DNA of 51,930 bases from an uncultured Alphaproteobacteria bacterium. GTDB lineage: Bacteria > Pseudomonadota > Alphaproteobacteria > HIMB59. Shown here in pieces: positions 8,539 through 14,492 of the stretch. The translations under genes and the position numbers were made by a program. A model generated the notes under the pieces. That model ran no database searches. It was given only the letters and a program-made list of their open reading frames with translations, and was not told where the DNA came from. Position 1 is the stretch's first letter; every line of letters starts with the position of its first letter. The stretch covers positions 1-51,930 of the forward strand of contig CABYQR010000006.1 in NCBI GenBank assembly GCA_902521155.1, read 5' to 3'.

Positions 8539-9094
8539 ACAAGAACTTCGTAAATACCATATAAGATCTAGGATGAAAATGGAAGTCTCTGAGGTTAACA
8601 ATCTTTCAAATAAAATTAATATTAGAGTACTTGAACTCTTAAGTGATATTCCTGATAATTCTACTATTGGTCTTTTTTACCCCTATAAAAAAGAAGTAAA
8701 TATTTTAGCCTTAGCAGAAGAGTTGGAAAAAAAGAAAATTCAATGTCTGCTTCCAAAGGTAATTACAAAAAATAAACCTTTAAAGTATTTTTCTTATTCT
8801 CATCAATATCCATTACTTGAAAAAGGATTTGGGGGGATAATGGAACCTGTGAGCAATCACTCAGTCGATCCAGATTTCATTATAGCTTCTTGTTCTGCAT
8901 TTAATATTGAGGGTTATAGAGTTGGTTATGGGGGAGGTTTTTTCGATCGAACAATTTCTGAACTAAGTGAAAAAAAAAACATAAAAACTATTTTGGCTGC
9001 TTTTGAAAGTCAAAAAACGCCAATACAATTTCAAGAGAGCTTTGATGAAAAAGTTGATTATATCTGTACGGAGAATAAAACTTATAGAACATGA
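8531..9094 (+). CDS. fau: 5-formyltetrahydrofolate cyclo-ligase
   Basis: The enzyme converts 5-formyl-THF to 5,10-methenyl-THF using ATP. The 187 residues carry the N-terminal helix (LRKYHIRSRMK) and the signature GYRVGYGGGFFDR at 128-140, which matches the family's GxRLGYGGGYYDR. The start is TTG, overlapping the zapA stop by 8 bases; no ATG lies upstream before the zapA coding sequence, and the family N-terminus starts here. It has no clear Shine-Dalgarno sequence, so translation probably depends on coupling. The stop overlaps the next gene in an ATGA junction. Confidence 0.92.
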   Translation: MNKQELRKYHIRSRMKMEVSEVNNLSNKINIRVLELLSDIPDNSTIGLFYPYKKEVNILALAEELEKKKIQCLLPKVITKNKPLKYFSYSHQYPLLEKGFGGIMEPVSNHSVDPDFIIASCSAFNIEGYRVGYGGGFFDRTISELSEKKNIKTILAAFESQKTPIQFQESFDEKVDYICTENKTYRT

Positions 9095-9906
9095 AATTTT
9101 TAGTCATAGGAGACGTTGTAGGAAGAACAGGTCGTCTAGCTTTGCAAAACAATTTATCTAAAATAAAAGATCAATTTAAGATTGATTTTACTATAGTTAA
9201 TGGTGAAAATTCAGCTGGGGGTTATGGCATTACTAGCAAGATTTATGAAGAAATGATGAATTGGGGAGTTGACGCTGTTACTCTGGGCAATCATGCTTGG
9301 AAGAAAGATGAAATTATTCCTTATATGGAAAGCAATCCAAATCATAATATTATCAGACCTTTAAATTTTCCCGAAGGCTCACCAGGACAGGGTTTCAAAA
9401 TTTTTACGCATTTGAATGGTAAAAGAATTCTAGTTTGCCAAGTTCATGGTGAAACTTTTATTGACCTTCCCCTAGACAACCCCTTTCAATCAATAGATAC
9501 AAAAATCCTCTCAATAATAAATGACCATGATATTGACTACTCCTTTTTGGAGGTACACGCAGAAGTTACCTCAGAAAAAAATGGTATTGCTCAACATTAT
9601 GATGGTAAGTTCACTGCTATTTATGGGACACATGTCCATATTCCAACAATGGACGCTAGAATATTAGATAAAGGAACCTGTTTCCAAACAGACATAGGTA
9701 TGACAGGTGATTATAACTCAGTCATTGGAATGAAAAAAGATAACGCTATTAAAAGAATGAGGACTAAAAATCTCACACATAGACTTGAGCCGGCTGAGGG
9801 AGAGGCTACAATCTCCGGTGCTATCATTACTACAAATCCGGATAATAATAATTCCATTCAATCGATTCAAATAGGTGGTGTTTTGGATCGTAATTTACTA
9901 TCTTAA
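9091..9906 (+). CDS. YmdB/TIGR00282 family metallophosphoesterase
   Basis: The 271-residue protein is a two-metal phosphoesterase. Ligands fit the family: Asp8 in GDVVG, Glu39 and Asn40 in NGENSAGG, Asn67 and His68 in GNHAWKK, His156 in EVHAE, and His181 and His183 in YGTHVHIPT. Members hydrolyse cyclic nucleotides in Bacillus and Deinococcus; the substrate here is unknown. It is coupled to fau by an ATGA overlap and is followed by yebC after 3 bases, an order common in alphaproteobacteria. Confidence 0.9.
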   Translation: MKFLVIGDVVGRTGRLALQNNLSKIKDQFKIDFTIVNGENSAGGYGITSKIYEEMMNWGVDAVTLGNHAWKKDEIIPYMESNPNHNIIRPLNFPEGSPGQGFKIFTHLNGKRILVCQVHGETFIDLPLDNPFQSIDTKILSIINDHDIDYSFLEVHAEVTSEKNGIAQHYDGKFTAIYGTHVHIPTMDARILDKGTCFQTDIGMTGDYNSVIGMKKDNAIKRMRTKNLTHRLEPAEGEATISGAIITTNPDNNNSIQSIQIGGVLDRNLLS

Positions 9907-9909
9907 ATC

Positions 9910-10650
9910 ATGGCAGGACATTCCAAATTTAAAAATATCCAATTTCGAAAAGGCGCCCAAGATAAAAAAAGAGCTAAACAGTTTTCTAAAATAGGAAGAG
10001 AAATTCAAATTGCAGTTAAAATAGCAGGAACGGATATTGAGTCCAATCCAAGACTAAGATTGGCAATTACAAAAGCTAGAAGTGTTAATATGCCTAAAGA
10101 TAATGTGGATAGAGCCATTAATAAAAATAACTCAGATACTACAGAGTATAGTGAGGTTCGCTATGAGGGTTATGGACCATTTGGAACAGCCTTTATAGTT
10201 GAAGCTTTAACAGATAATAAAAATAGAACCGCTTCTGAGATCAGATCTATATTTTCAAAAAATGGAGGTAATTTGGGCGAGACGGGAAGTGTCAGTTTTA
10301 ATTTTGATAAAGTTGGAGAAATACAAATTAAAAGCGAAATTAATGATAGATTATTAGAAGAATTGCTAGAACATGGATTAGAGGATTACTCAGTAGAAGA
10401 TAATATTACAAATATTTATTGTAAATTTGAGTCATTGGCCTCTTTAGAAAAGGTTATTATGGAAAAAGGCTTAGATGTTGAAAGCGCTTTAATAGTTTGG
10501 AAACCAAATTTGACAGTAAAAATAGAAAAAGAAGATGAATTAAATAGATTGATTAAATTGAATGATGACTTAGAGGATAATGATGACGTTCAAAATTGCT
10601 TTTCTAATCTAGATTTTGACAGTTCCTTATTAGATAATTCCAATGCCTGA
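9910..10650 (+). CDS. yebC: YebC/PmpR family regulator (TACO1-like)
   Basis: The protein starts MAGHSKFKNIQFRKGAQDKKR, the family signature, and has the usual three-domain length of 246 residues. Family members have been described as DNA-binding regulators and, more recently, as factors that help ribosomes at difficult sequences. In most proteobacteria yebC precedes ruvC-ruvA-ruvB; here the next gene is a small nuclease candidate whose start lies 8 bases before the yebC stop. The acidic C-terminus (LEDNDDVQNCFSNLDFD) is longer and more acidic than I expect, possibly a lineage trait. Confidence 0.95.
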   Translation: MAGHSKFKNIQFRKGAQDKKRAKQFSKIGREIQIAVKIAGTDIESNPRLRLAITKARSVNMPKDNVDRAINKNNSDTTEYSEVRYEGYGPFGTAFIVEALTDNKNRTASEIRSIFSKNGGNLGETGSVSFNFDKVGEIQIKSEINDRLLEELLEHGLEDYSVEDNITNIYCKFESLASLEKVIMEKGLDVESALIVWKPNLTVKIEKEDELNRLIKLNDDLEDNDDVQNCFSNLDFDSSLLDNSNA

Positions 10651-10978
10651 TAAGGCATGGAAAAATAGAGAAAGACTTGTCTCTAGATTTTTTGGTGGAA
10701 TAAGAAACGCTCTGAGTGGTATTAACTCTAAGGTCACACATTCAGATGTTATACATGATACACTTTTTATTGAATGTAAATTAAGAGCAAAACACTCAGC
10801 TGTTAAATTATGGGATGATACAAAGATTTTAGCAGATAAGGAAAAAAAGACTCCAGTTATTGCGCTTTGTGAAAAAAATAGACCTGGTTTTTGGATAATG
10901 GTACATTCAGATGATTTTGAAACAGTTTCAAATGAACTCAGTGTTAAAAAAAATACTAGTAAAGAAGATGAGGATTAA
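10643..10978 (+). CDS. Small PD-(D/E)XK nuclease-like protein, Hjc-like layout
   Basis: This 111-residue protein has no confident name. Its layout matches a minimal PD-(D/E)XK nuclease: a helix with Glu10 (NRERLVSRFF), a glycine-rich turn (ALSGINSK, 23-30), Asp35, and the ExK pair Glu44 and Lys46 in FIECKLRA, followed by a helix (VKLWDDTKILADKEKK) and a strand with PVIALCEKNRPGFWIMV. The spacing E10-D35-E44-x-K46 resembles archaeal Holliday junction resolvase Hjc. Related small proteins annotated as hypothetical occur in other bacteria and phages. The start overlaps the yebC stop by 8 bases and tolQ follows after 3 bases, so it is in the yebC-tol operon. A structure-specific endonuclease is my inference; a restriction-type or repair nuclease is also possible. 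Confidence 0.72.
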   Translation: MPDKAWKNRERLVSRFFGGIRNALSGINSKVTHSDVIHDTLFIECKLRAKHSAVKLWDDTKILADKEKKTPVIALCEKNRPGFWIMVHSDDFETVSNELSVKKNTSKEDED

Positions 10979-10981
10979 ATT

Positions 10982-11680
10982 ATGGAAGAAGTTGTAAACC
11001 TTGCTGCTTTAGAAGGGTCTGTGGATTTTTCTATGTTTGGAATGTTTTTAAAATCTGATTGGGTAGTTAAACTTGTAATTGTCCTTTTAGTAATTTTCTC
11101 AATTCAATCTTGGAAAATTATTATTCAAAAAATCTTATTGGTAAACAAGCAACGTAAAATCTCTAAACAATTCGAAAACCATTTTTGGTCTGGGGTATCT
11201 TTAGATGAGCTTTATGAACAAATTGATGATTTTGACCAAGAAAGCTTTTCTAATATTTTTAGAAATATCATGAATGAATATGAAAAATCGCGATTGCAAA
11301 AAAATAAAATCGACTCAGCTTTTATTCAAAGATTATATACATCTCTTGATCTTAGTATTGCTACTGAAGATTCAAATTTAAATAAAGGCTTGTCTTTTTT
11401 AGCTTCTTCCGGATCAGTAGCACCTTTTATTGGTTTATTTGGAACTGTATGGGGAATTATGAATAGCTTTCAAGCAATTGCTATTGCTCAGAATACCAAT
11501 TTAGCTGTTGTTGCCCCAGGTATTGCAGAGGCACTTTTTGTGACTGCTTTGGGTTTATTTGTAGCTATACCTTCCACAGCATTTTACAATATGATTACAT
11601 CTAAAATTGACAATTATTTATCTGAGGCTGAAAGTTTTGGCAAAGATCTTGTAAATATTATTTCACGCCAAGTAAAATAA
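10982..11680 (+). CDS. tolQ: Tol-Pal system protein TolQ
   Basis: TolQ is the inner-membrane stator of the Tol motor, in the ExbB/MotA family. It has 232 residues with three hydrophobic segments: about 28-47, about 133-155 (GSVAPFIGLFGTVWGIMNSF) and about 172-200 (PGIAEALFVTALGLFVAIP). The conserved glycine- and threonine-rich second and third helices are clear. With TolR it uses the proton gradient to drive TolA. The usual upstream gene ybgC is missing; the nuclease candidate takes its place. tolR abuts the stop codon. Confidence 0.95.
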   Translation: MEEVVNLAALEGSVDFSMFGMFLKSDWVVKLVIVLLVIFSIQSWKIIIQKILLVNKQRKISKQFENHFWSGVSLDELYEQIDDFDQESFSNIFRNIMNEYEKSRLQKNKIDSAFIQRLYTSLDLSIATEDSNLNKGLSFLASSGSVAPFIGLFGTVWGIMNSFQAIAIAQNTNLAVVAPGIAEALFVTALGLFVAIPSTAFYNMITSKIDNYLSEAESFGKDLVNIISRQVK

Positions 11681-12076
11681 ATGAGAAAAAAACTCCGACC
11701 TGTTTCAAATATTAACGTAACTCCAATGGTTGATGTTATGCTAGTCTTGTTAATAGTTTTTATGGTTACAGCACCTCTATTAACTGTTGGCGTACCTGTT
11801 AATTTGCCAAAAGTTGAAGCTAACTCATTGGATGCTCAAAAAGAGCCACTTGAAATATCCATCAATCAAGATAATGAGATTTATTTGGGAGAGGAGCAAA
11901 TACCTTTTGATGATTTAATTGCTAAAGTAAAAATAATTGCAGGCTCAAACACTGATATAAGAATTTTTTTAAGAGCTGACACCTCTATTAATTATGGAGA
12001 AGTTATGAAAGTGTTAGGTGCATTGAACACATCAGGTTTTTTAAAAATTGCACTTGTGACTAAAAAACCTAGTTAA
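11681..12076 (+). CDS. tolR: Tol-Pal system protein TolR
   Basis: TolR is the ExbD-family partner of TolQ. The 131 residues have a short cytoplasmic start, then a single membrane helix INVTPMVDVMLVLLIVFMV at about 11-29 containing Asp18, the proton-path residue of the family. The periplasmic domain follows, with the characteristic FLRADTSINYGEVMKVLGAL near the end. It starts directly after the tolQ stop, with no spacer, and is followed at once by tolA. Confidence 0.95.
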   Translation: MRKKLRPVSNINVTPMVDVMLVLLIVFMVTAPLLTVGVPVNLPKVEANSLDAQKEPLEISINQDNEIYLGEEQIPFDDLIAKVKIIAGSNTDIRIFLRADTSINYGEVMKVLGALNTSGFLKIALVTKKPS

Positions 12077-13129
12077 TTGAGTACAATTTCTATTTTCAAT
12101 CCGTTTAGAAAAATAATTTATCTAGTTGAAAATGTTAGTTATAAAAAAAGTGACTCTTTCTTCCAAGTTATATCGTTTCTAATTCATTTATTAATTTTAA
12201 TACCTATGATTAATTTTACATTTCAAAAAGAGATCAGCGATATCCCAATGATTTTACCAGTAGAGATGTTTATTATAGAAGAGCAAACAGCTGCACCAGA
12301 ATTTGTTGAGGAGATTAATGAGATTGTCCCAACTATTCAGGAAGAGGCAGCCAAAGAGGTAAAAGAAATAATAGAGGAGCCTATTATCTCTCAACCTATA
12401 ATTGAAGAGGTTATTCCAGAAATAACTTCAACCGAAGTTCAAGAAATCCTTCCTGATATAAAGGAATCTAATATTATAAATGAAAGTGAAGAGGTTCTTG
12501 TTGATAACAGTTCTAATCAGGCAAATGAATTTGTAATAGAAGAAGTCCCCGTAGAACAAAAAAAAGAACCCGAGGAGGAGACACCCCCTCCTATTGAAAA
12601 TGATTTTGAAATTGAGCTAAAGCAAAAACCCGAACCAAGAGAAATAGAAAAACCTTTTGATAACTTTGAAATCATTGTTAAGAAAAAACCTACTAAAAAA
12701 ACTTTTAATGTGAGTACCGTTCTTAAAGATTTAGAAAATAAAGATCAAGAATTTAAAAAAGAACAAGAATCAATAGAGGAAAAACAAGAGGAAGTCTTTA
12801 CTGAAAAAGTAGGCCCAACAATGACTATTTCTGAGATTGATCTTTTAAAACAACAGCTCCACGGATGTTTGAATTTGAATGTCGGAGTAGCTAATCTAAA
12901 AGAAATTAAACCAGTTATATATATTGAGGTCAATCCAGATAGGACTGTCAAAAATGCAAAAGTTGTAAATCAAGAAAGATTAATAGACCCCTCTTTTAGA
13001 ACTGCCGCTGAAGCTGCAATGAGAGCTGTCAATAATCCTGATTGTAGTCCTTTATTATTACCTCAAGATAAATATGAGAAATGGAAAGAAATTAATTTTA
13101 CTTTTGATTTCAGCTGGATGTTTGATTAA
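12077..13129 (+). CDS. tolA: TolA-like protein, C-terminal TonB/TolA domain
   Basis: TolA spans the periplasm from TolQR to Pal. It has 350 residues: a membrane helix near 29-50 (VISFLIHLLILIPMINFTF), a long Glu/Pro/Ile-rich low-complexity linker from about 65 to 250, and a C-terminal domain beginning with LLKQQLHGCLNLNVGV that matches the alphaproteobacterial TolA/TonB C-terminal fold, with a paired cysteine (CLN and PDCSP). The start is TTG, immediately after the tolR stop. Acidic repeats such as EEPI and EVIPEI replace the Lys/Ala-rich helix of E. coli TolA, so sequence identity to it is low and the assignment rests on domain order and place. Confidence 0.88.
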   Translation: MSTISIFNPFRKIIYLVENVSYKKSDSFFQVISFLIHLLILIPMINFTFQKEISDIPMILPVEMFIIEEQTAAPEFVEEINEIVPTIQEEAAKEVKEIIEEPIISQPIIEEVIPEITSTEVQEILPDIKESNIINESEEVLVDNSSNQANEFVIEEVPVEQKKEPEEETPPPIENDFEIELKQKPEPREIEKPFDNFEIIVKKKPTKKTFNVSTVLKDLENKDQEFKKEQESIEEKQEEVFTEKVGPTMTISEIDLLKQQLHGCLNLNVGVANLKEIKPVIYIEVNPDRTVKNAKVVNQERLIDPSFRTAAEAAMRAVNNPDCSPLLLPQDKYEKWKEINFTFDFSWMFD

Positions 13130-13175
13130 TCAAAAAATTAAAAAAATACTCATAAAAATATGCTAATAATAAAGA

Positions 13176-14492
13176 ATGTTTAAATTACTTACCTTTTTTA
13201 TATTTTTAAGTATCAAATCTTTTGCTGCTTTAGATGTAACTATTTCCCAAGGACAAGTTGAACCTACTCCAATAGCAATTACTCAGATTTTTGGTAGTGA
13301 AGCTGATACAGCCAGATATGGGAATACTATCAGAGAGATTATTTCAAATAATTTGACTAATTCTGGGCTATTTTACACAGTCAATGAGGACTTATACATA
13401 CAGTCAGACAATTTAGTTGAAAAAGTTCCAAGATTTGAGGATTGGAAGTTGATCAAAGCCCAATTTCTTCTCAGCGCTGATGTAAAAAAATCAGATAAGG
13501 GTATTAGATTAAGAATGAGATTGTATGATGTTTTTAATGGAACTGAAATTGAGAAGCTTCAACTAACAATCCCAGATGAAGATCTTGTGAGACGTGTAGG
13601 ACATACCGTAAGTGACATTGTCTATGAGAGAATTACGGGAGAGACTGGATATTTCGATACTAGAATTGTCTATGTTTCTGAAGTAGGTCCCTTAGACCAA
13701 AGAATAAAAAGGTTAGCAATTATGGATCAAGATGGCCACCTTGATAGCCATCAATTTTTAACGGATGGAAAAAATCTTGTTCTTACACCACGTTTTGCCC
13801 CTAATAATCAAACCATAACTTATATGGAATATAAAAATAATTTACCCCGAGTTTATATCTATAATCTTTTAACTGGGGAGAGGGAAATAGTAGGAGATTT
13901 TCCTGGCATGACATTTGCTCCTAGGTTTTCTCCAGACAGCCAAAGCATAGTTATGTCCTTTTCAGAACCCAATACTGCTAATTCAGAGATTTATCTTATG
14001 GATTTAAATACACGATCACTTAATAAATTAACAGATGACTCAGGAATTGACACCTCTCCATCTTTTTCACCCGATGGTAGTAAAATAGTTTTCAACTCTG
14101 ATAGGGGAGGAAGCCCACAAATATTTATAATGGACAAAGATGGTAAAAATTTAAAAAGAATATCTAAAGGAAGAGGTGTTTATGGTAATCCTGTTTGGTC
14201 ACCTAGAGGAGACTATATTGCTTTTGTTAAAAATATAAGACCAGACTTCTATATAGGTGTGATGGATACCAATGGAGATAATGAGAGAATTGTTGTAAAA
14301 GATTTTTCTTTAGAGTCCCCGGCATGGTCTCCAAATGGTAGATATTTAATTTTTTATCGTCAGCAAAGATCAAACACAGATGGTACGGGGGGAGAAACTA
14401 CAATTCATTTTATAGATATTACTGGTTACAATGAGAGAATCATTCCTACTCCTAGGGATGGTAGTGACCCAGCTTGGTCACCTTTATTGTAG
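13176..14492 (+). CDS. tolB: Tol-Pal system beta-propeller protein TolB
   Basis: TolB is a periplasmic protein that binds Pal and links it to TolA. It has a signal peptide in the first 18 residues or so (FKLLTFFIFLSIKSFAA), an N-terminal domain, and then a six-bladed propeller with repeated blade motifs such as PRFSPDSQSI, PSFSPDGSKI, PVWSPRGDYI, PAWSPNGRYL and a final PAWSPLL. The 438-residue length is normal. It follows tolA by 46 bases, where AT-rich sequence with TAATAAT may hold a weak promoter; the 129-base gap after it likely holds the pal promoter. Confidence 0.96.
   Translation: MFKLLTFFIFLSIKSFAALDVTISQGQVEPTPIAITQIFGSEADTARYGNTIREIISNNLTNSGLFYTVNEDLYIQSDNLVEKVPRFEDWKLIKAQFLLSADVKKSDKGIRLRMRLYDVFNGTEIEKLQLTIPDEDLVRRVGHTVSDIVYERITGETGYFDTRIVYVSEVGPLDQRIKRLAIMDQDGHLDSHQFLTDGKNLVLTPRFAPNNQTITYMEYKNNLPRVYIYNLLTGEREIVGDFPGMTFAPRFSPDSQSIVMSFSEPNTANSEIYLMDLNTRSLNKLTDDSGIDTSPSFSPDGSKIVFNSDRGGSPQIFIMDKDGKNLKRISKGRGVYGNPVWSPRGDYIAFVKNIRPDFYIGVMDTNGDNERIVVKDFSLESPAWSPNGRYLIFYRQQRSNTDGTGGETTIHFIDITGYNERIIPTPRDGSDPAWSPLL

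Follow-up and report, generated by a model that had tools for sequence, protein, structure and literature searches.

The textbook exception to the use of RuvC is found in Firmicutes, where RecU takes its place and RuvAB is kept. Almost all bacteria have RecA and Holliday-junction resolvases, and RecU, which does not derive from RuvC, replaces it throughout a whole bacterial group (PMC1193525). In Escherichia coli the task falls to RuvC, a protein of RNase H-like fold, and RuvAB, which together form a three-part machine. Archaeal cells use the Hjc and Hje enzymes (1gef, 2wcw/2wj0, 1ob8, 1hh1), and an archaeal-like counterpart is known from the Thermus phage Tth15-6. This protein, Hjc_15-6, has a solved structure (PDB 7bgs/7bnx) and cuts Holliday junctions in vitro, with E10, D40, E53, and K55 as its catalytic residues and E-SD-EVK as its motif (PMC8805305). 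Relatives are present in P23-45, TSP4, D6E, and Geobacillus phages; proteins of this type are about 155-177 residues long and are encoded by phage genes, the P23-45 copy lying in the replication region near DnaB.

HIMB59, also called AEGEAN-169, is an order of abundant ocean Alphaproteobacteria. The window analyzed here, a stretch of 51,930 nucleotides, comes from a HIMB59 genome of 1.11 Mb (78% complete). We consider it probable that a small phage-type Hjc nuclease encoded in the window is a captured housekeeping Holliday-junction resolvase, one that would cleave junctions in place of RuvABC in the HIMB59 order and in a related MarineAlpha6-type lineage. Like Hjc_15-6, it is a small PD-(D/E)XK protein with the series E ... 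RxPLSG ... SD ... ExK, spaced as E10-D35-E44-K46 where the phage enzyme has E10-D40-E53-K55; unlike Hjc_15-6, it has 111 residues and occupies a fixed chromosomal housekeeping locus. Archaeal Hjc and Hje provide its best fold match and share its catalytic set, but their connection to it in sequence runs only via the phage Hjc family. It resembles RecU in its non-RuvC origin, whereas it belongs to a different family, and its carriers have lost the RuvAB beside which RecU works. With E. coli RuvC and RuvAB, which are absent from HIMB59-order genomes, it shares a chromosomal slot and a presumed job.

The open reading frame encodes the product P0001, MPDKAWKNRERLVSRFFGGIRNALSGINSKVTHSDVIHDTLFIECKLRAKHSAVKLWDDTKILADKEKKTPVIALCEKNRPGFWIMVHSDDFETVSNELSVKKNTSKEDED, and lies embedded between yebC and tolQ, as the preliminary description had it, sharing 8 nt with yebC and ending 3 nt before the start of tolQ (Table 1). 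Homologs in 106 of 120 genomes from the order, together with an identical slot in three families, confirm that this is a real gene and not a chance reading frame. It is present as a single copy in the genome, and its G+C content of 31.5% is the same as that of its neighbors. Comparison with relatives in the genus gives dN values of 0.03-0.07 with saturated dS, placing the protein under strong purifying selection. Promoter scans at the locus found no excess over shuffled sequences.

Table 1. Features of the nuclease locus, in window coordinates.
Feature	Position	Strand	Basis
ymdB-like phosphodiesterase gene, upstream of yebC	9091..9906	+	ORF named from sequence; conserved order
yebC, upstream neighbor, ancestral neighbor of ruvC	9910..10650	+	ORF, synteny
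Hjc-like PD-(D/E)XK nuclease, 111 aa, candidate Holliday-junction resolvase	10643..10978	+	ORF, homologs, AlphaFold, profile link to Hjc_15-6 family
E10 codon, motif I glutamate (helix 1)	10670..10672	+	Invariant; aligned with E10 of Hjc_15-6 family, also E10 in Hjc_15-6 (PMC8805305)
R21-N-A-L-S-G26, conserved RxPLSG segment	10703..10720	+	R21, S25, G26 invariant; RVPLSG in Hjc_15-6; same segment in solved chain 7bgs and in its phage relatives
S34-D35 codons, motif II (D35 alone, 10745-10747)	10742..10747	+	D35 invariant; SD as in E-SD-EVK of Hjc_15-6 (PMC8805305)
E44-C45-K46 codons, motif III ExK (E44, 10772-10774; K46, 10778-10780)	10772..10780	+	E44, K46 invariant; aligned with E53/K55 of Hjc_15-6
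tolQ, downstream neighbor	10982..11680	+	ORF, synteny
tolR, tolA, tolB	11681..14492	+	ORFs named from sequence; conserved order

Direct searches with P0001 of NCBIfam and of the PDB sequences returned nothing useful, nor did searches of the PDB with the family profile made without a phage Hjc bridge. PHROG_2002, a group of phage genes whose name "Holliday junction resolvase" is an annotation and not a tested function, matches P0001 (E 2.8e-7) as well as 28 of 29 diverse family members. A profile of Hjc_15-6, built from relatives in Thermus, Geobacillus, Roseobacter, and Pelagibacter phages, aligns in hhalign with the profile of the nuclease family at a probability of 96.2% (E 2e-9), against 2.8% for the best of 150 column shuffles and 0.1% for the reversed profile, pairing E10, R21, LSG, D35, E44, and K46 with their Hjc_15-6 family counterparts. 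The same phage profile matches 7bgs in the PDB at 2.6e-30 and archaeal Hjc/Hje chains at 7e-8 to 6e-3. Profile comparison thus assigns the window nuclease to the archaeal-like phage Hjc family (Hjc_15-6/PHROG_2002 type), by a link to Hjc that is transitive, passing through phage Hjc sequences. A conserved protein outside the Pfam and NCBIfam families would gain a function.

Other labels were also considered. Having no Pfam-A match at E <= 1, P0001 was not classed with archaeal Hjc proper (the Pfam Hjc family); it gives no match to RuvC (PF02075), and RusA (PF05866) falls with the lack of any Pfam match. PF24608 (PDDEXK_15) matches 4 of the 29 members weakly (best E 0.0074) and P0001 not at all, and gives the Hjc of Thermus phage P23-45 likewise only 0.0039. 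The "RusA-like" PHROG_244 matches 14 of the 29 members but also Thermus Hjc, so that its label is a loose one. In Bacteroides phage BS162P1, one reading frame (L057:5323-6315) joins an HNH region annotated as I-HmuI to a C-terminal Hjc-like nuclease with 43% identity to the window protein; the label "DNA endonuclease I-HmuI" on this match belongs to the fused HNH part and not to the Hjc-like domain. Two cultured marine phages, Pelagibacter phage EXVC031P (L344:1504-1968) and Roseobacter phage CRP-823 (L343:1501-1836), encode further Hjc_15-6-like members, under the annotation "hypothetical" or "group-specific" protein.

The putative catalytic residues E10, D35, E44, and K46 do not vary among 19 bacterial homologs, nor among 28-29 diverse sequences, mostly from viruses, with identities as low as 31%. 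To the same depth, W6, K7, R21, S25, G26, and H38 are also invariant in the 29-sequence family alignment, and the segment T32-H33-S34-D35 of the window protein contains the SD of the Thermus phage motif. An AlphaFold monomer model based on this alignment (pLDDT 86.4, pTM 0.80) supersedes an earlier one from 23 sequences (pLDDT 73). It predicts helices at residues 5-17, 53-66, and 89-110 and strands at 41-47, 70-77, and 80-86, with the first strands of the nuclease fold, near residues 20 and 36, being short. The eight best Foldseek matches of the model in the PDB are all archaeal Hjc, as are the top three matches in VIA-align, led by 1gef_B (Z 7.2, rmsd 4.1 Å over 90 residues). Taken alone, these structural scores are moderate, since a Z value of around 7 may mean merely a common fold. 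The preliminary description had read E10, D35, and E44-x-K46 as the catalytic set of a PD-(D/E)XK fold close to archaeal Hjc. The conservation check, in both sets of homologs, bears out all four residues, and structure prediction returns that fold; the closeness to archaeal Hjc holds for the fold match, whereas the protein is most closely related to resolvases of phage packaging cassettes and not to archaeal Hjc directly.

The closest non-bacterial relatives are encoded on marine viral contigs, at 63-78% identity. In the viral contigs examined, the nuclease gene is placed between the genes for the small and large terminase subunits (terS and terL), followed by a head-tail adaptor gene, and in some it overlaps the start of the large-terminase gene by 4 nt. 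Phage resolvases such as T4 endonuclease VII clear branched DNA before packaging (PMC8805305), which would be a natural original role for a gene of the terminase cassette. Since viral sequences make up the deeper branches of the family, the source of the gene is most likely a phage, with transfer presumably running from phage to host; a plasmid origin was excluded at the sensitivity used, there being no match.

In the gene tree, the sequences of each bacterial family group together. One of them (f2) joins the viral sequences L113/L127 (support 100/96), and another (f1) joins a different viral set, L064/L073/L071, with moderate support (88/86). Topology tests do not reject a single clade of f1 and f2 (p 0.37), and are borderline for a clade that also includes the third family, f25, of the MarineAlpha6-type lineage (p 0.044). 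The tree is compatible with one capture or with several. Phage copies cluster according to the bacterial family they resemble, suggesting repeated exchange between host and phage; such exchange probably continued after capture, whether from host to phage or from phage to host.

The position of the gene on the chromosome relates it to RuvABC. In the RuvC-bearing Alphaproteobacteria L162 and L166 the order is yebC-ruvC-ruvA-ruvB-ybgC-tolQ-tolR-tolA, and what was seen of L159, L160, and L163 is consistent with it. This is evidently the ancestral arrangement, with exceptions among RuvC-bearing genomes (for example, L153 and L164) in which the yebC-ruvCAB-ybgC-tol order is not kept. The loci inspected from the HIMB59 order and from f25 read ymdB-yebC-nuclease-tolQ-tolR-tolA-tolB-pal, the slot being the same in f1, f2, and f25. 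The nuclease, lying between yebC and tolQ, stands exactly where ruvCAB-ybgC stood, in line with the preliminary description, which had called this the site of ruvC-ruvA-ruvB-ybgC in relatives. Its further suggestion of a link to division genes falls away, as the tol genes are simply ancestral neighbors of the ruv slot and call for no functional explanation. The ybgC gene is also gone from the locus along with ruvCAB (window 10979-10981; loci L031-L050 and L149-L152).

A tree of five flanking genes places f1, f2, and f25 together on one side of a branch with 99/97 support, although all of these genomes are AT-rich, no Pelagibacterales were knowingly included, and compositional attraction is possible. 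This topology fits a single ancestral replacement common to the three families. Two families make up the HIMB59 order (PMC10734472), which agrees with the present sample.

The distribution of the nuclease mirrors that of RuvC. It is present in 106 of 120 HIMB59-order genomes (65-89% identity), including all 20 with a completeness of 90% or more, and RuvC was found in none of the 120, against 353 of the 385 genomes in the class sample. RuvC is missing from all nine carriers in that sample, five from the HIMB59 order and four from one other family, f25, and the nuclease is missing from every one of the 353 genomes with RuvC; the Fisher p value of 6e-11 for this exclusion overstates independence, as only one or two evolutionary events lie behind it. 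The preliminary description had pinned its proposal on ruvC being missing from this genome; it is missing from the whole order and not only from the 78%-complete window genome. Not RuvC alone but all of the RuvABC complex has been lost. Presence and absence calls rest on family searches, in which RuvA_N was found in 0 of 21 genomes, and RuvB_C in 0 of 25 nuclease-bearing genomes and in both RuvC-bearing relatives used as controls. RuvB was scored by RuvB_C in place of RuvB_N (PF05496), which is matched in all genomes, but weakly and by AAA+ cross-matching (no better than 32 bits, often in frames of 400-800 aa, and in archaeal controls too). RusA (PF05866) was found in 0 of 27 genomes. RecA, RecG, and RuvX/YqgF (PF03652) are each present in 23 of the 25 nuclease-bearing genomes, close to universal presence given that the genomes are incomplete. 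With RecA present and RuvABC missing, homologous recombination is kept without its usual resolvase.

In the class sample, 23 alphaproteobacterial genomes have neither RuvC nor the nuclease (G216, G252, G167, G291, G315, and others). Near-complete genomes are among them, G216 being a single contig of 1.2 Mb and 100% complete. Further resolvase replacements may be hidden in this set.

The nuclease could alternatively act on forks, flaps, and Y structures in replication-fork processing or repair, with Holliday junctions resolved by other means or for the most part dissolved by RecG and topoisomerases. Promiscuity is common among phage resolvases, which are typically less selective than cellular ones (PMC3864405), the phage relatives sit in packaging cassettes, and RecG is present; yet the gene occupies precisely the ruvCAB slot, occurs only in genomes without RuvC, and has a family profile that groups with proven four-way junction resolvases, which together make this account rather improbable. 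Alternatively, RuvX, present in nearly all carriers, might be the working resolvase and the small nuclease might have an unrelated role. We regard this as very unlikely, since RuvX is equally present in RuvC-bearing relatives and so does not behave as a substitute, and since YqgF, which most genomes have together with RuvC or RecU, is not considered simply an analogue in function (Rocha 2005, PMC1193525). Slighter still are the chances that the gene is kept for phage-host conflict, such as packaging interference or exclusion, for although marine viral contigs commonly carry close phage copies and the gene tree mixes host with phage sequences, the gene is fixed and single-copy at the same core locus in three families, against the patchy spread usual for defense genes, and its protein is under strong purifying selection.

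Replacement of RuvABC by a captured phage resolvase, the reading we prefer, suggests the following course. A tailed-phage gene of the type flanked by terminase-subunit genes would have been captured and placed between yebC and tolQ, in the slot of ruvC-ruvA-ruvB-ybgC, and RuvABC would have been lost. In the present cell, RecA would make joint molecules, whose branches would be moved by RecG, a putative partner, or by spontaneous migration. By analogy with Hjc, the nuclease would bind the four-way junction as a presumed homodimer and nick two opposing strands; E10, D35, and E44 would hold Mg2+, and K46 would assist. A broader activity is possible, as branched structures of other kinds can be cut by PD-(D/E)XK proteins of such a size.

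The protein itself is of a known family; what is new is the cellular system, in which, unlike the RecU case, RuvAB has been lost too. The open-access literature searched yielded no paper that links HIMB59 and RuvC, and those read on HIMB59 genomes make no mention of ruv or Holliday genes. We give even chances to the full picture, that of a whole abundant order without RuvABC which resolves junctions with a domesticated phage packaging-cassette resolvase and RecG, and whose gene is still exchanged between host and phage while its slot stays constant.

If true, this would add a third solution beside RuvC and RecU, one that comes with the order-wide loss of all of RuvABC. It would mean that an enzyme of 111 residues can stand in for a machine of branch migration and resolution, and that a phage DNA-processing gene can turn into a core housekeeping gene. 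It also opens to testing the question whether a free-living cell can manage with RuvAB-independent resolution.
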